Source of the DNA: Alphaproteobacteria bacterium
Lineage (GTDB): Bacteria > Pseudomonadota > Alphaproteobacteria > Sphingomonadales > Kordiimonadaceae
Length of the DNA: 64,000 bases
Direction: 5' to 3'
Assembly: GCA_006226495.1 (NCBI GenBank)
Contig: SBGU01000047.1
Location: 62,001-126,000 of the forward strand
In this document: positions 2,495-10,629 of the stretch, in pieces
Position numbering within the stretch: the first letter of the stretch is position 1
Layout: the number at the start of each line of letters is the position of its first letter
Position numbers and translations under genes: made by a program
Notes under the pieces: generated by a model
What the model was told of the DNA's origin: nothing
Seen by the model: the letters and a program-made list of their open reading frames with translations, nothing else
Databases searched by the model: none

Positions 2495-3652
2495 ATGACG
2501 AAGCCTGCTCTGCAGCCGCGGCGTCCGGAATTTAGCTCCGGCCCGTGTGCAAAGCGTCCCGGTTGGGCCGTGGACGCACTCAAGAACGCCCTTGTTGGCC
2601 GTTCGCATCGCTCGAAGCCTGGTAAGGCCAAGCTTCAGTATGCCATCAACAAAACCCGTGAAATTCTGAACGTACCGGCGGATTACCGCATCGGTATCGT
2701 TGCCGCCTCGGACACCGGCGCCGTCGAAATGGCGCTGTGGTCCTTGCTCGGCGCCCGTGGTGTCGACATGCTTTCCTGGGAAAGCTTTGGCGCCGGCTGG
2801 GTGACCGACGTGGTCAAACAGTTGAAGCTGAAGGACGTGCGCACCTTCGACGCACCCTACGGCGCGCTGCCCGACCTGTCGCAGGTGGACACCGACCGCG
2901 ATGTGGTCTTCACCTGGAACGGCACCACGTCCGGCGTGAAGGTTCCGAACGCCGACTGGATCAAGGACGACCGCGCGGGCCTGACCATCTGTGATGCCAC
3001 TTCGGCCGCGTTCGCCATGGACCTGCCGTGGCAGAAGCTCGATGTTGTCACCTATAGCTGGCAGAAGGTGCTGGGCGGCGAGGCCGCGCACGGTGTGCTG
3101 ATCCTGAGCCCGCGCGCCGTTGAACGCCTTGAAAGCTACACGCCCCAATGGCCGCTGCCGAAAATCTTCCGCATGACCAAAGGCGGTAAGCTGATTGAAG
3201 GCATCTTCCAGGGTGAAACCATCAACACCCCCTCGATGCTGTGTGTCGAAGACTATATCGACGCGCTTGAGTGGGCTGACGGCCTGGGTGGCCTGTCTGC
3301 CCTCGTGGCCAAATCCGAAGGCAACCTGAAGGTGCTGGAGGACTGGGCGGCCACATCCGATTGGGTTGGCTTCCTTGCGGAAGACAAGGCCATCCGCTCG
3401 AACACGTCCGTGTGCCTGAAGGTGGTGGACCCCTGGTTCCAGGGCCTTGACGCCGAAGCCCAGGCCGCCGTGCCCAAGAAGCTGGCAGCCATGCTGGACG
3501 CCGAAGGCGTGGCCTATGACATCGGTGCCTACCGCGATGCGCCTGCCGGCCTTCGTATCTGGGCCGGTGCCACGGTGGAAGCCGAGGACCTTGAGGCCCT
3601 GACCGCATGGCTTGACTGGGCCTATGCCACCGTCAAGGCGGACTTCGCCTGA
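2495..3652 (+). CDS. serC: Phosphoserine aminotransferase
   Basis: 385 residues. It converts 3-phosphohydroxypyruvate and glutamate to phosphoserine and 2-oxoglutarate in the cytosolic serine pathway. The PLP lysine lies in the S-W-Q-K-V-L-G-G-E motif (about residues 189-197), and the N-terminal [12 protein letters not shown] is typical of the alphaproteobacterial/archaeal SerC subgroup. The ATG at 2495 has a GGAAGGATAGG ribosome binding site. serA follows 71 nt later and consumes the preceding step of the same pathway, so the two form an operon. The hairpin leader directly upstream suggests leader-level control. Confidence 0.95.
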
Positions 3653-3723
3653 TTTAGATGCAAACGGTCGGGGCAGGGCCCCGGCCATTCCCCCGCATTC
3701 AGAATATTTCGAAAGGATACATC

Positions 3724-5301
3724 ATGCCCAAGGTGCTGATTTCCGACAAGATGAGCCCGCTTGCAGAACAGATCTTCAAGGACCGCGGCGTTGACGTTGA
3801 CTATATCCCCGGCCTCGACAAGGACGAACTGGCCAAGATCATCGGCAAATATGATGGCCTTGCCATCCGCTCGTCCACCAAGGTAACACCGACCATCCTG
3901 GCCGCCGCCACCAACCTGAAGGTGATCGGCCGCGCCGGTATCGGTGTCGACAACGTCGATGTGCCCGCCGCCACCAACGCCGGTGTGGTGGTGATGAACA
4001 CGCCGTTCGGCAACTCGATCACCACGGCAGAGCATGCCATTGCCATGATGATGGCGCTGGCGCGCGACATTCCGCAGGCCAATGCCTCGACCCACGCCGG
4101 CAAATGGGAAAAATCCAAATTCATGGGTGTGGAACTGACCGGCAAGACCCTTGGTCTTATCGGTTGCGGCAACATCGGTTCGGTGGTGGCAGACCGTGCC
4201 CAGGGCCTGAAGATGAAGGTTATTGCCTTCGATCCGTTCCTGGCGGTTGAACGCGCGGCGGACCTGGGTGTCACCAAGGTCGAACTGGACGAGCTGTTCG
4301 CCAAGGCCGATTTCATCACCCTTCATACGCCGCTCACCGACAATACTCGCGGTATCGTTGGCAAGGCCGCGTTCGAGAAGATGAAAAAAGGCGTGCGCAT
4401 CATCAACTGTGCCCGGGGTGGCCTGATCGATGAAGCCGCGCTTCTGGATGCCCTGAATGCCGGCAAGGTGGCTGGTGCGGCGCTTGACGTGTTCGCCGCC
4501 GAACCCGCGACCGAAAACCCGCTGTTCGGCCATGAAAAAGTGATCTGCACCCCGCACCTTGGCGCGTCGACGAACGAAGCCCAGGTGAATGTGGCCCTGC
4601 AGGTTGCAGAGCAGATGGCCGATTACCTGCTGACGGGGGGTGTGACCAACGCGCTCAACATGCCGTCGGTGAGTGCCGAAGACGCGCCGCGCCTGAAGCC
4701 CTACATGAAGCTTGCCGAACAGATCGGTGGTTTTGCGGGCCAGCTTACCGAACATGGCCTCAAGCGTGTGGTCATCGAATATGAAGGCCATGTGGCGGAA
4801 CTGAACACCAAGCCCCTGACCGCCGTTGTGCTCGAGGGCCTTCTGTCGCCCTTGATGGACACGGTGAACATGGTCAACGCGCCGGTCATCGCCAAGGAAC
4901 GCAACATCCAGGTGACCGAGGTCAAACACGACCGCGAAGGCGACTACCAGACCCTGATTCGCCTGACGGTCGAAACCGAAAAGCGTGCCCGCACGGTATC
5001 CGGCACCCTGTTTGCCAACCAGGCACCCCGGATTGTCGAGGTCAATGGTGTACGGCTTGAGGCCGAGCTTGCGCATCACATGCTCTATGTGGTGAACGAC
5101 GACAAGCCGGGCTTTATCGGCGCCCTGGGCTCGCTCCTTGGTTTCAACGGTGTCAACATCGCCACCTTTGCGCTCGGTCGCCGGATCGAAGGCGAAGAAG
5201 CGGTGGCCCTGGTGGCCGTTGACGGTGAAATCAAGGATATTGTGCTTGACCAGGTGGCCGCGCTCGCCCATGTACGACAGGCGAAAAAACTGTCGTTCTA
5301 A
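3724..5301 (+). CDS. serA: D-3-phosphoglycerate dehydrogenase
   Basis: 525 residues, the long form of the enzyme with a C-terminal ACT domain. It oxidises 3-phosphoglycerate with NAD, the first step of serine synthesis. Visible: the Rossmann G-L-I-G-C-G-N-I-G-S motif (about residues 145-154), the C-A-R-G-G-L-I-D-E active-site segment, a T-P-H-L-G-A-S-T segment with the catalytic His, an intervening domain, and an ACT-like end (M-L-Y-V-V-N-D-D-K-P-G-F-I-G) that in this family can sense serine. The ATG at 3724 with GAAAGGA upstream is chosen over an in-frame codon at 3658 because the conserved M-P-K-V-L-I-S-D start follows it. Confidence 0.96.
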   Translation: MPKVLISDKMSPLAEQIFKDRGVDVDYIPGLDKDELAKIIGKYDGLAIRSSTKVTPTILAAATNLKVIGRAGIGVDNVDVPAATNAGVVVMNTPFGNSITTAEHAIAMMMALARDIPQANASTHAGKWEKSKFMGVELTGKTLGLIGCGNIGSVVADRAQGLKMKVIAFDPFLAVERAADLGVTKVELDELFAKADFITLHTPLTDNTRGIVGKAAFEKMKKGVRIINCARGGLIDEAALLDALNAGKVAGAALDVFAAEPATENPLFGHEKVICTPHLGASTNEAQVNVALQVAEQMADYLLTGGVTNALNMPSVSAEDAPRLKPYMKLAEQIGGFAGQLTEHGLKRVVIEYEGHVAELNTKPLTAVVLEGLLSPLMDTVNMVNAPVIAKERNIQVTEVKHDREGDYQTLIRLTVETEKRARTVSGTLFANQAPRIVEVNGVRLEAELAHHMLYVVNDDKPGFIGALGSLLGFNGVNIATFALGRRIEGEEAVALVAVDGEIKDIVLDQVAALAHVRQAKKLSF

Positions 5302-5323
5302 CTGACGCGGGAGAGGGACCCCG

Positions 5324-6499
5324 ATGAACGGTCCTAAAAAAGAATTGGCGGGTGGTGCATACGCCCGCCAGGCCCTGTTGCCGGAAGGTTTCCGTGACCA
5401 GCTCGCGCCTTATGCCGAGCAGGAAGCTGCGCTTGTGCGCACGCTGGTGGACACCTTCCTGAGCCACGGCTACGACCGCGTCAATCCGCCGCTGGTGGAA
5501 TATGAGGACAGCCTCCTGGTGGGCGCTGGCGCCACCCGCGCCAAGCAGATGTTCCGCCTCATGGACGTGGATACCCAGCGCATGATGGCCGTGCGCGCCG
5601 ACATGACCATGCAGATGTCGCGCCTTGCGGCCACGCGCCTGTCGGACGCCGCGCGCCCCTTGCGCCTTGCCTACACGGGCAATGTGCTGCGCACCAAGGG
5701 CAGCCAGCTTCGCCCGACCCGCCAGTTCATCCAGGCGGGCGTCGAACTGGTGGGCAGCCAGTCGCTGGAAGGCGAACTGGAAGTGATCCTGATCGCGGTC
5801 GAAAGCCTGCAGGCCGTGGGCATCGGCGCCCTGTCTGTGGACCTGACCCTCGCGCCGCTTGTCGGCCTGATGTGCGACAGCGCCAAACTGTCGGGCGACC
5901 TGCGCCAGACCGTGCTTGAAGCCATGGAAGCCAAGGACGCGGGCGCGCTGACCATCCTGCCCGCCGATATCCGCGCGCCGTTCGCGCGGGTTCTGGATGC
6001 CGCCGGTCCCGCGGGCCGCGCCATGGACCTTTTGCGCCTGCTGGAACTGAAGGGTGCCGCCGGCAAGCTGATCGCGCGCCTGGGCCGCCTTGTCGACATG
6101 ATCAGCACACGCCTTCCGGATGTGGCGGTGACCATCGACCCGTGCGAATGCCACGGATTCGAATATAAAACCGGCATCGGATTCGCGCTGTTTGCGCGCG
6201 GTGCCAAGGGTGAACTGGGCCGGGGCGGCCGTTATGTGGTCACGCATCCCGACGGGCATGAAGAAGATGCGACCGGCTTTTCGGTCTATCTTGATACCCT
6301 GATGAAAGCGCTGCCGGCGCCGGCGCCTGTGCAGAAGCTTTATGTGCCTGCAGGCACTTCGCCGGACGCCGCCAAACAGGCGCGCGCCGATGGCTGGCGC
6401 ACAATCCAGGGTCTTGGCGAAACCGCCGACCCGGCAAAAGAGGCGCGTCTTTTGGGCTGCAGCCATATCTTGCTTGATGATACGGTCCGGGCCGTATAA
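5324..6499 (+). CDS. hisZ: ATP phosphoribosyltransferase regulatory subunit
   Basis: 391 residues, a histidyl-tRNA synthetase-like protein without tRNA-charging function. In species with the short HisG, HisZ forms the hetero-octameric first enzyme of histidine synthesis and gives feedback by histidine. The class II core is seen in L-L-P-E-G-F-R-D-Q and in the motif 2 region around R-L-A-Y-T-G-N-V-L-R. It has the HisZ length and lacks a clear anticodon-binding domain. A GGGAGAGGG ribosome binding site precedes the ATG, 22 nt after serA. hisG is not in the window; the serA-hisZ-purA order is common in alphaproteobacteria. Confidence 0.92.
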   Translation: MNGPKKELAGGAYARQALLPEGFRDQLAPYAEQEAALVRTLVDTFLSHGYDRVNPPLVEYEDSLLVGAGATRAKQMFRLMDVDTQRMMAVRADMTMQMSRLAATRLSDAARPLRLAYTGNVLRTKGSQLRPTRQFIQAGVELVGSQSLEGELEVILIAVESLQAVGIGALSVDLTLAPLVGLMCDSAKLSGDLRQTVLEAMEAKDAGALTILPADIRAPFARVLDAAGPAGRAMDLLRLLELKGAAGKLIARLGRLVDMISTRLPDVAVTIDPCECHGFEYKTGIGFALFARGAKGELGRGGRYVVTHPDGHEEDATGFSVYLDTLMKALPAPAPVQKLYVPAGTSPDAAKQARADGWRTIQGLGETADPAKEARLLGCSHILLDDTVRAV

Positions 6500-6538
6500 A
6501 AGCCCACTTTTACGGGCATCCAGATAAGGGGATATTCC

Positions 6539-7831
6539 ATGGGCAACGTTGTTGTTGTCGGCTCGCAATGGGGCGACGAGGGCAAAGGCAAAATCGTTGA
6601 TTGGCTTTCCGAACGCGCAGACGTGGTTGTGCGGTTCCAGGGCGGCCACAACGCGGGCCACACCCTGGTCGTTGATGGCAAGGTCTACAAGCTGTCCCTG
6701 ATGCCTTCGGGTGTTGTGCGCGGCGGCAAGGTCAGTGTCATCGGCAACGGTGTCGTGATCGACCCGTGGGCGCTTCTGAGCGAAATGGACAAGCTGCGCG
6801 GGCAGGGTGTGGATATCACCCCGGATTCGCTGCAGATCGCCGCCAATGCGACCCTGATCATGCCCTATCATCGCGAACTGGATGCGCTGCGCGAAGACGC
6901 CACCAAAGGCGTGAAGATCGGCACCACGCGCCGTGGCATCGGCCCGGCCTATGAAGACAAGGTCGGCCGCCGGGCGATCCGTGTCTGCGACCTGCAGTCG
7001 CGCGACACCATCGAAGCCCGGCTTGAAGTCGCGCTGACGCACCATAATGCCGTGCGCCGTGGCCTCGACCAGCCGGAAGTGGACGGCAAGGAAATCGCCG
7101 ACCAGTTGATGGAACTGGCGCCGCAGATCCTGCCCTATATGCACAATGTCTGGCGCACGCTGGACGACGCGCAGAAAAGCGGCAAGAAAATCCTGTTCGA
7201 AGGCGCCCAAGGCTCGCTGCTTGATGTCGACCATGGCACCTATCCGTTCGTGACCAGCTCGAACACCATCGCCGGCCAGGCCGCCGGTGGCTCGGGCATG
7301 GGCCCGCGTGCGCTTGATTATGTGCTCGGCATCACCAAGGCCTATACCACCCGCGTGGGGTCTGGCCCGTTCCCGACCGAGCAGGAAAATGAAGTCGGCC
7401 AGTATCTGGGCGAAAAAGGCCATGAGTTTGGTGTGGTCACCGGCCGCAAGCGCCGCTGTGGCTGGTTCGATGCCGTTCTGGTGCGCCAGAGCCTGACCAT
7501 CGGCGGTGTCGACGGCATCGCGCTCACCAAGCTTGACGTGCTGGACGGCCTTGACGAACTGAAGGTCTGTGTCGGCTACAAGCACAAGGGCGAAATTGTC
7601 GATTACCTGCCTTACGGCATGGAAGACCAGGCCGCGATCGAACCGGTGTATGAAACCCTCGAAGGCTGGCAGGACAGCACCTTTGGTGCCCGCAGTTGGG
7701 CCGACCTGCCGGCGACCGCCATCAAATATATCCGCCGCATCGAAGAACTGATCGGCGTGCCCGTGGCGCTGTTGTCGACCAGCCCGGAACGCGACGACAC
7801 CATTCTGGTGCGCGATCCCTTCCAGGACTAG
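6539..7831 (+). CDS. purA: Adenylosuccinate synthetase
   Basis: 430 residues, full length. It joins IMP and aspartate using GTP to make adenylosuccinate, the first committed step to AMP. Diagnostic segments: [11 protein letters not shown] near residues 8-18 (GTP loop and catalytic Asp), [10 protein letters not shown] (about 35-44), the G-T-T-x-x-G-I-G-P-A segment, and [10 protein letters not shown]. It lies 39 nt behind hisZ with an AAGGGG ribosome binding site and closes the cluster, since a strong terminator follows at 7874. Confidence 0.97.
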
Positions 7832-7873
7832 GGCCCGGCGGAATACAGGCATCCTGCAATATCAAATTCACGG

Positions 7874-7909
7874 AACACCGCTAACTATAGACGTTAGCGG
7901 TGTTTTTTT
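7874..7909 (+). terminator. Rho-independent terminator after purA
   Basis: A 12-bp perfect stem pairs 7874-7885 (AACACCGCTAAC) with 7893-7904 (GTTAGCGGTGTT) around a 7-nt loop, followed by a run of seven T at 7903-7909. It ends the serC-serA-hisZ-purA transcription unit. Confidence 0.93.
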
Positions 7910-8031
7910 GTAAGTATTTATAGTCAGTCACGTTATGATTCAGAATTGTTAACCAATTCCGGGGACACTGGCTTGCACGTATGAATTGACGTGCACAGCA
8001 TGCGTGTCGGTGGGTGAAGGGGGTAAACGGC

Positions 8032-10059
8032 TTGAGCGGGGAGACTGCACCAGTCCCTGCCGGGCAGAGCGCTTTCGGGGAACGCTACGTCGTCAATACG
8101 GCGGCATCCCTGCCTGAGTTCAGCACGGAAGGCGGCCATGCCTTTAAGGTCAGCGACCAGGATCAGCCTGGCCGCGAGCTTTATGCGCTTGTGCATCACC
8201 ATACCGTGCCGCTTCGCAACGAAGTTTACCGCAGCCTGAAGGGCCGTGCCGTCCCCAATATGGTCAACCCGGTCGACCGGGGTCTCATGACCCTTGATGT
8301 CGGCGGGCAAAAGCAGCGGCTGGTGACCATTTTCGAACGTCCGCTTGGCGGCCCGCTGATGGGGCCTGACGGCAAGGTCAATCCGCGCATCAATACCAAC
8401 CGGCTCAGGCAGCATGTGGTGTTGTCGGTGCTGAAGGCCCTGGCGGCTTTGCACAAGCGCGGCATCGTGCATCGCAACCTGATGCCCACGAACCTGTATT
8501 TCGCCACCAAGGACGGCGAAGAGGTCTGGATCGGTGAATGTTACAGCACACCGCCCGGCTTTCGGCAGCCCTTCTGCATGGAACCGATCGACCATGCGCT
8601 GGCGGACGATACGGCCCGTGGCCTTGGCACCCTGGACGACGACTTTTTCCAGTTTGGCGCCACCCTGCAGTGCCTGTTTTTTGGTGAACAGCTATGGCAG
8701 GGCCGCAAGCGCGACGCCACGATCATGGCGCGCATCAACCAGGGTTCCTATTGGGCGCTCAGCGGTGGCCGCGATATCCCCGGTGCCCTGGGTGGCCTGA
8801 TCAAGGGCCTGATGGCCGACGAGCCTGAGGAGCGCTGGGGGGCGGAAGACGTGCTCGACTGGTTCGAGGGTGTCGGCAAACCCAAGCGCATGACCCTGAA
8901 GGCCTGGACCATGAACCGGCCGACCAATTTCAAGGGCGTGGCCTATGTGGACCGGCGCCTGCTGGCGGACGCTTTCGCGCGCGACCCGCGTGAGGCGGCG
9001 TCCTTCCTCAAGAACCTGGATTTCCCGGCCTGGGCCCAGCTTTCGTTTCGCGACGAGATCCTGACCGAACGGCTGGAGGCCGTGATCAATGTACGGCCGG
9101 CGGAAGGCTATAGCGGCGCCCGCGCAGACGACTACAAGATGGTGGCCCGTGTCTGCATGTTCCTGCATCCGACCGGCCCCCTGCATTTCCGGGGGCATTC
9201 GGTGTTCCTGGACGGCATCGGCCCGATGATCGCAGATGCCTTCGCCCGCGACGACCGCGACCTGATCGCCATCATCACCGACCTGATGGACCAGAAATTC
9301 CTCAATTCCCTGACCGAAATCTGTGGTCCGCGCAACCCGGGTTTTGCGCCGCGCATGGCCGAATTCAAGCAGGCCATCGACCATGGCACCAGCAAGTCGC
9401 TGGGCCGGGGCATGGAACGGGTCCTGTATCAGATGAACCCGATCCTGCCCTGCCTCAGCCAGCGTTTCGACAATGTCTGGATCGGGTCGATCAAGCAGCT
9501 CATGCGCGCGCTTGACCGCCTGTCCGCGACCGGGGGCGGGCGCAACATCCTCCTGGACCGGCATGTGGCAGCCTTCTGCAACACCCACGGCCCCGACCTG
9601 ACCCGCGAGTTCAACCGCCTGGCGGCAGCCCAGAACGACCCGGCCCGGTTTGCCAGCCTGTCGGCAGAGTTTTTTGGCGTCCTGCAGCGCCGTTTTCAGT
9701 TGGAGCCGCTGCCGGCGCTGACGGAAAAGCTGGTCGACGGCCTGGCGCCTGCCATCAAGGGGCTGAAGAACAAGAAACGCCGCGAGCTGGTACAAACGCT
9801 TCTGGACAAGATCAAGAAGGGTGGCGACATCTCGAAGCTGGGCAATGAAGTGAACCTTTTGCAGGTTCAATCGGAAGATGCCCGCGAATTCGCCAGCGCC
9901 CGCACCCTTTTGACCCGGATCGAACGGGAACGTGTTCGCCTTGGCCGCAAGGTCATGCCGACCGACACGGAAGCCCAGGAACGTGGTATAAAAGGCAGCC
10001 GAACCTTCGCATTTGTTGTTATGCTGATCGTCGGTTTCCTGACGATGTATTCGGGATGA
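8032..10059 (+). CDS. Tail-anchored protein-kinase-like protein (pseudokinase)
   Basis: About 675 residues. The first ~290 residues follow a Ser/Thr kinase fold: an H-R-N-L-M-P-T-N-L segment stands where active kinases have H-R-D-L-K-P-x-N, then a D-D-F-F-Q-F-G-A-T-L-Q helix and an end like D-E-P-E-E-R-W. The catalytic Asp is Asn, the following Lys is Met, no DFG is visible (I-G-E at that place), and no clear VAIK lysine is seen, so it is probably catalytically dead. A long helical middle follows, and the C-terminus ends in one hydrophobic helix, predicting a tail anchor with the bulk in the cytoplasm. The TTG at 8032 is chosen for its AAGGGGG site 8 nt upstream; a GTG at 8014 is the alternative. 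The next gene starts 4 nt after its stop. Confidence 0.8.
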   Translation: MSGETAPVPAGQSAFGERYVVNTAASLPEFSTEGGHAFKVSDQDQPGRELYALVHHHTVPLRNEVYRSLKGRAVPNMVNPVDRGLMTLDVGGQKQRLVTIFERPLGGPLMGPDGKVNPRINTNRLRQHVVLSVLKALAALHKRGIVHRNLMPTNLYFATKDGEEVWIGECYSTPPGFRQPFCMEPIDHALADDTARGLGTLDDDFFQFGATLQCLFFGEQLWQGRKRDATIMARINQGSYWALSGGRDIPGALGGLIKGLMADEPEERWGAEDVLDWFEGVGKPKRMTLKAWTMNRPTNFKGVAYVDRRLLADAFARDPREAASFLKNLDFPAWAQLSFRDEILTERLEAVINVRPAEGYSGARADDYKMVARVCMFLHPTGPLHFRGHSVFLDGIGPMIADAFARDDRDLIAIITDLMDQKFLNSLTEICGPRNPGFAPRMAEFKQAIDHGTSKSLGRGMERVLYQMNPILPCLSQRFDNVWIGSIKQLMRALDRLSATGGGRNILLDRHVAAFCNTHGPDLTREFNRLAAAQNDPARFASLSAEFFGVLQRRFQLEPLPALTEKLVDGLAPAIKGLKNKKRRELVQTLLDKIKKGGDISKLGNEVNLLQVQSEDAREFASARTLLTRIERERVRLGRKVMPTDTEAQERGIKGSRTFAFVVMLIVGFLTMYSG

Positions 10060-10063
10060 AACC

Positions 10064-10606
10064 ATGACACAGAACAAGAAACCTCCGATGAGAATAAGGC
10101 GCCGCCGGACACGCGGCCCCGAAATCAGTGGTTTCGGGCCGTTGCTCAGCATCGCGCTCGTGGGTGTTTCGCTGTTCCATTGGCAGGTTGCCGTGTTGTT
10201 CGTGGTCGGCCTGTTGCCCAGCATCGTGTTGGCGTTTACCGGGCGTGGTGCCTATAAAAGCTACAAGCTTCAATGTGTTACCTGTGCCAACCTGGCCGGA
10301 ATCATGCCCTTTGCAGCCATGGTATGGGCGCAGCCTCGCGCCATGTATGACGTGCTCCTGAACCCCCTGAACCTCCTGATGATGATCGGGTCTGCCGCCA
10401 TCGGCTATGCGCTGGTCTACATCGGCCCCATGGTCGCAGCCGTTGTGCTGCAAAGCATGGCGCAGGACAAGATCAAGGCCCTGAACCAGCAGCGTGTGGC
10501 GCTTCTGGAAGCCTGGGGCCCGGAAGTGCTGGGTGATACAGAAGCCAAAGGCGAGGACCCGGCCTGGGCCAACAAGCCACGCCGGGGTGGTGAAGACTCC
10601 AACTGA
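10064..10606 (+). CDS. Small membrane protein paired with the pseudokinase
   Basis: 180 residues. A basic N-terminal stretch (R-R-R-R-T-R) precedes about four hydrophobic segments: roughly residues 23-45, 46-58, 76-92 and 98-126. The remaining tail is polar and charged. No family motif is recognised. It starts 4 nt after the stop of the pseudokinase, so both are surely made from one message, and both are membrane proteins with large or charged cytoplasmic parts; a physical complex is an inference from that. A palindromic terminator follows. Confidence 0.78.
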   Translation: MTQNKKPPMRIRRRRTRGPEISGFGPLLSIALVGVSLFHWQVAVLFVVGLLPSIVLAFTGRGAYKSYKLQCVTCANLAGIMPFAAMVWAQPRAMYDVLLNPLNLLMMIGSAAIGYALVYIGPMVAAVVLQSMAQDKIKALNQQRVALLEAWGPEVLGDTEAKGEDPAWANKPRRGGEDSN

Positions 10607-10629
10607 AAAGGGCCCGCAATTGCGGGCCC
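10606..10629 (-). terminator. Terminator hairpin, probably bidirectional
   Basis: A 20-bp perfect palindrome at 10610-10629 (GGGCCCGCAATTGCGGGCCC) lies between the convergent membrane protein gene and rpoH. Four A at 10606-10609 become a U tract for minus-strand transcripts, so it mainly fits rpoH termination. Confidence 0.75.

Follow-up and report, generated by a model that had tools for sequence, protein, structure and literature searches.

The locus described here lies within a stretch of 64,000 nucleotides (the window) from a Kordiimonas-like alphaproteobacterial genome of 4.3 Mb, which is held in 60 contigs and is 96.8% complete. The gene order at the locus is serA, hisZ, purA, the two genes that concern us, and then the convergent genes rpoH and rluD. 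The first gene of the pair (8032..10059, plus strand) encodes PK, a tail-anchored pseudokinase of 675 residues that was characterised from the gene call, Pfam matching, orthologue alignment, an AlphaFold2 (AF2) model and structure alignment. Its start codon is the TTG at 8032. Orthologues align from this region, and a probable ribosome-binding site read from the sequence, AAGGGGG, stands ahead of the start (8017..8023, plus strand). The second gene (10064..10606, plus strand) begins after a spacing of 4 nt and encodes TM, a membrane partner of 180 residues; the two genes form a two-gene unit. The PK of Kordiimonas marina is 82% identical to that of the window.

A preliminary description of this DNA had placed the pair in isolation between terminators. 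This is borne out on the upstream side, where an intrinsic terminator after purA (7872..7909, plus strand; 14-pair hairpin, U7 tail, dG -20.3 kcal/mol, z -5.3) parts the pair from the preceding gene. It is borne out only in part downstream, because the hairpin that lies where TM and rpoH converge (10610..10629, without strand assignment) has a U-tract on the rpoH (minus) strand only. Antisense open reading frames of 549 and 873 residues opposite serA, hisZ and purA (window 3622-7852, minus strand) were set aside as typical codon-use artefacts of high-GC DNA, as were the apparently conserved antisense 'neighbours' of clusters 5, 7, 10 and 11, which are gene-calling artefacts consisting of long reading frames opposite purA or rpoH in such DNA.

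The N-terminal part of PK (residues ~10-281; 8059..8874, plus strand) is a kinase-fold domain, as delimited by the AF2 model with VIA-align, alignment to the kinase MK2 and column counts. The single PK sequence matches Pfam Pkinase with E 2.9e-7 over residues 122-158, just under the cut-off, and a profile built from 74 members of the PK family matches solved kinases at E ~1e-14. The AF2 model of the whole protein has a pLDDT of 92 and a pTM of 0.86, and its structural matches are WNK1, JAK1 and JAK2 JH2, with Z ~22 over ~245 residues within 10-281. The kinase-like fold proposed in the preliminary description is therefore present. Pfam matched no domain in PK besides Pkinase.

The catalytic positions of PK were placed by alignment to MK2 and counted by column over 74 aligned members. 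The position of the beta3 lysine is V54 in the window's PK and is V, I, L, M or A in 73/74 members, with lysine in 1/74. The HRD motif reads HRN at residues 147-149, with N149 at the position of the catalytic aspartate. Across the family this position is occupied by A, S, N, G and others, aspartate being found in a single member (1/74), and the histidine and arginine of the motif are kept in 70/74 and 58/74, respectively. The lysine that follows the HRD aspartate is replaced by M151. Both losses in this loop had been recognised in the preliminary description. The DFG motif, which had also been considered lost, has indeed lost its phenylalanine and glycine, with the region reading G-E-C in the window's PK and G-E/D-C in the family, but an acid is kept at the aspartate position (E169; glutamate in 48 members and aspartate in 21, thus acidic in 69/74). 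Most members have proline in place of the first glycine in the Gly-rich loop. The beta3 lysine and the catalytic aspartate occur together in none of the 74 members, and a search of the aligned model for an intact catalytic triad found none. Judged by its sequence, PK is dead as a kinase, and this applies across the whole family.

The APE glutamate (E184) is kept in 71/74 members, and the alphaF aspartate (D204) and the alphaI arginine (R268) are each kept in 73/74, which argues that selection acts on the fold of PK and not on its chemistry. W269 is also conserved, and the activation segment is short, at 15 residues from E169 to E184. Loss of the ATP-anchoring lysine and of the catalytic aspartate from a fold that is itself retained points to a non-catalytic role. 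Some second copies of PK (L106, L107, L103, L104 and L115) have G-P-P or G-P-C in the DFG region and so have no acid at the aspartate position, a further step of decay.

The catalytic-loop asparagine (N154) is kept in 61/74 members and is retained jointly with the acid at 169, as a metal-site pair, in 56/74, so that a relic metal or nucleotide site in PK is possible on the evidence of these residues. The acid of alphaC is likewise D or E in 51/74. Because these retentions go beyond the needs of a pure scaffold, they favour an alternative in which PK is an atypical enzyme, with Asn154 and Glu169 binding a metal or nucleotide for some other transfer and TM serving as substrate or holder. Known pseudokinases offer precedents in SelO, which carries out AMPylation, and SidJ, which carries out glutamylation (PMC12599244). 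Like PK, these proteins combine a kinase fold lacking the HRD aspartate with a catalytic-loop asparagine region and the DFG acid (HGVMNTDN and DYG in SelO) (PMC12599244). However, SelO and SidJ keep the beta3 lysine (PMC12599244), which is V54 in the window's PK and is lost in all but one member of its family, and the Gly-rich-loop glycine is mostly proline in PK. We consider an atypical enzyme of this kind improbable.

The kinase fold is followed by a helical C-terminal domain (residues 286-643; 8887..9960, plus strand), for which an AF2 model of the domain alone has a pLDDT of 90.9. It carries the motifs GxGxERxLYELNPxLPCxSP and DRHxAAF and the invariant residues Y466, C474 and Q552. A fold search with this domain gave no PDB match (best E 0.43) and a best VIA Z of 5.4, which is not proof of a new fold, and there was no match in a library of viral models (best E 0.97). 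PK ends, as had been noted, in a single membrane helix, the tail anchor (within residues ~646-674; 9967..10053, plus strand; hydropathy and an AF2 helix at 646-673), after which only a residue or two remain. By a hydropathy cut, this helix is found in all aligned members except one.

The multi-helix membrane protein previously reported 4 nt after PK is TM, with four predicted helices (residues ~24-40, 42-59, 70-88 and 101-130). The charge distribution predicts an N-in/C-in topology, being positive at the N-terminus, after helix 4 and in the loop at 61-70, and negative at 91-100. The most conserved motif of TM, (E)xWGxEV, ends the predicted cytoplasmic C-terminal helix. TM has no significant Pfam match and no match to MVIN; matches of TM to Pam17, Gaa1, DUF4791 and other Pfam families were dropped as chance, being scattered over one or two members each. 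Stand-alone extra copies of TM (L158, L159, L160 and L161) are present in both sampled genomes of family f13, at three per genome and away from any PK.

Among 387 alphaproteobacterial genomes, strong matches to PK and TM were found together in 130 and were both missing in 257, and no genome had one without the other (Fisher p ~1e-106, a statistic that ignores shared ancestry). The coupling of PK to a membrane partner is therefore stronger than had been claimed, all 130 carriers having both proteins. By a count of family labels, the carriers represent about 60 of the roughly 150 families sampled, and they make up about a third of the sampled Alphaproteobacteria genomes. TM lies immediately downstream of PK for 136 of 148 PK genes, so that the kinase, far from never adjoining the membrane protein, is nearly always next to it. 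Six of the other 12 PK genes are second copies, their genomes also having an adjacent pair. In two genomes (G287 and G216), PK and TM are truly unlinked and both genes are kept, and the remaining cases are contig breaks or fragments. The pair also behaves as a unit: in Azospirillum ramasamyi it has moved as a whole to another site, and at three loci (L079, L090 and L093) the whole pair is duplicated in tandem.

The six second copies of PK without an adjacent TM (L106, L110, L111, L113, L114 and L117) belong to families f46, f82 and f117, and each of their genomes also has a normal pair. Those of f82 and f117 form one long-stemmed clade. Their occurrence in three families suggests that some relatives of PK may work without a dedicated partner. 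The neighbours of the second copies and of the unlinked partners have no common functional theme.

Pairwise distances of PK and TM remain correlated once purA and rpoH are accounted for, with a partial r of 0.40 that was reached in 1 of 2000 permutations; the corresponding value for PK and rluD is 0.14. When hisZ is substituted for rluD, the partial r is 0.32 for PK and TM, 0.24 for PK and hisZ and 0.30 for TM and hisZ. The closeness of the PK-TM value to those of the hisZ pairs makes the co-evolution signal a modest one. Taken together, the exact co-retention, the linkage, the joint movement and duplication of the two genes and this modest co-evolution argue that PK and TM belong to one complex, in which they would be in direct contact.

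The usual site of the pair is purA-PK-TM-rpoH. In a set of 40 diverse loci, purA lies directly upstream in 23 and a convergent rpoH lies downstream in 25, with at least one of the two in 34. Such conserved gene order could be taken to mean that the pair regulates its neighbours, controlling RpoH and with it the heat-shock response, or PurA. Yet the strong terminator after purA and the convergent orientation of rpoH mean that no transcript is shared, the pair is found intact elsewhere in at least six of the 40 loci, and serC, serA, hisZ and rluD are equally syntenic at the site. The equal synteny of these four genes makes the position of the pair look merely inherited, and we judge a role in regulating the neighbours to be quite unlikely.

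The PK tree follows families, as expected under vertical descent, and shows inheritance of the pair to be mostly vertical. Genomes of 1.4-2.0 Mb still keep it. In the same order as the window's genome, the pair is missing from the Sphingomonadaceae-like family f2 and from most of f161. When the C-terminal domain was used to search the phylum, accepted homologues came from Alphaproteobacteria alone; matches outside the class (E ~1e-5, profile residues 256-342) were too weak to count as homologues. PADLOC matches of PK to MkoA, PD-T4-6 and mad6 cover generic kinase stretches, and a defence role is improbable for a core gene that is passed on vertically.

The preliminary description had likened the pair to the MurJ/FhaA systems. 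MviN (MurJ)/FhaA (ActPs3) does resemble PK in placing a dead kinase domain at the membrane, where it is thought to act as a non-catalytic recruiter of proteins (PMC12599244). By analogy with the mycobacterial MviN (MurJ)-FhaA-PknB system, PK might then bring together an active Hanks kinase and an FHA reader as their scaffold, and of 60 other genomes with the pair, about 25 have a canonical Pkinase elsewhere. However, MviN is phosphorylated by PknB, whereas the window's genome, at 96.8% completeness, has a single PF00069 match, PK itself. Many other pair genomes are in the same position: a clear second Hanks kinase is missing from about 34 of the 60 (as read from the table, with matches other than the PK gene counted when E was below about 1e-9), and a PknB-like phosphorylation scheme therefore cannot be general. 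In addition, MviN/ActPs3 is one fused flippase protein of Actinobacteria, whereas PK and TM are two separate genes of Alphaproteobacteria with no flippase, TM being a four-helix protein of 180 residues and not MurJ. Only one FHA protein turned up in the window's genome, a cNMP-binding/FHA protein that lies unlinked on another contig (L176:779-1549). The likeness to MurJ/FhaA thus does not hold, and a scaffold of the Hanks/FHA type is very improbable. Small genomes of family f38 encode another Pkinase-fold protein of ~490 residues (L173:476-1957 and L174:414-1865). It differs from the PK family and combines a VDLKPSN loop and a DCDGF motif with hydrophobic helices at the C-terminus.

Seven families of bacterial pseudokinases, ActPs1-3, GLW, CP1, DYD and DLHK, are distinguished in a 2025 review (PMC12599244). 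ActPs1 proteins have a PQQ domain and loss of the G-helix and occur in Actinobacteria, and DYD proteins have a DYD motif with a beta3 arginine and occur in Actinobacteria and Firmicutes (PMC12599244). Set against the descriptions in that review, the pair lies outside GLW, ActPs2, ActPs3/MviN, DLHK and CP1, lacking at least one defining feature of each. GLW pseudokinases have G-L-W in place of HRD and L or W at the site of the beta3 lysine, whereas PK keeps the H-R and has V or I there. ActPs2 resembles the window's PK in the change of HRD to HRN and in its C-terminal membrane region, but these actinobacterial proteins have a beta3 arginine and an activation-loop insert of ~250 residues (PMC12599244), compared with V54 and a 15-residue segment in PK, and the PK family shows several other states besides HRN. 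DLHK proteins keep the HRD aspartate and have no membrane region (PMC12599244), in contrast to the N149 and tail helix of PK. CP1 proteins carry a COG3899 ATPase domain and lack a membrane region (PMC12599244), whereas PK has only Pkinase in Pfam and ends in the tail helix. Compared with a canonical Hanks Ser/Thr kinase (PF00069), PK shares the bilobal fold but not the beta3 lysine or the HRD aspartate.

By function, the nearest analogues of PK-TM would appear to be two membrane pseudokinase scaffolds, MviN-FhaA and EssB/YukC. The latter is an assembly scaffold of the type VIIb secretion system (PMC12599244). EssB/YukC of T7SSb resembles PK in several respects: it is a pseudokinase of the membrane, its catalytic motifs are degraded, its activation loop is short, and a single membrane helix follows its kinase domain (PMC12599244). 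PK differs in having a helical domain of ~350 residues between kinase and helix and a dedicated four-helix partner, and the genes around the pair (serC, serA, hisZ, purA, rpoH and rluD) include none for secretion. A literature search on this pair found no study of it, in line with the earlier suggestion that it may be undescribed, although this is weak evidence of absence because the subscription literature was mostly out of reach.

We favour the interpretation, to which we give a probability of about two in three, that PK and TM are, in much of the Alphaproteobacteria, the two components of an obligate complex of the inner membrane, with PK as a non-catalytic docking or allosteric hub. PK would sit on the cytoplasmic face, hung by its C-terminal helix, and would be held by, or signal through, the four-helix TM. 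The dead kinase lobe and the helical C-terminal domain may together offer a cytoplasmic docking surface that TM anchors or gates. PK would work without phosphotransfer, and the complex would accordingly be a scaffold and not an enzyme. The retained asparagine and acid may bind metal or nucleotide, allowing the kinase lobe to act as a switch. A bolder proposal, which we put forward tentatively, is that the pair is an ancient alphaproteobacterial housekeeping machine made of a kinase-dead PK, whose helical domain would have an undescribed fold, and its obligate four-helix partner, in which the asparagine and acid mark either a nucleotide-switched scaffold or a new non-kinase chemistry.

That the pair is conserved in about 60 families, genomes of 1.4-2.0 Mb included, suggests a housekeeping function, one that has been overlooked because database entries are labelled 'serine/threonine protein kinase' and 'hypothetical protein'. 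Membrane-bound pseudokinase scaffolds are already known; the variant with an obligate partner described here is uncharacterised. The only Hanks kinase that Pfam recognises in the window's genome is a dead one with a fixed membrane partner. The pair is probably a conserved, uncharacterised membrane scaffold, and it provides a clean case in which to study the reuse of the kinase fold for this purpose.
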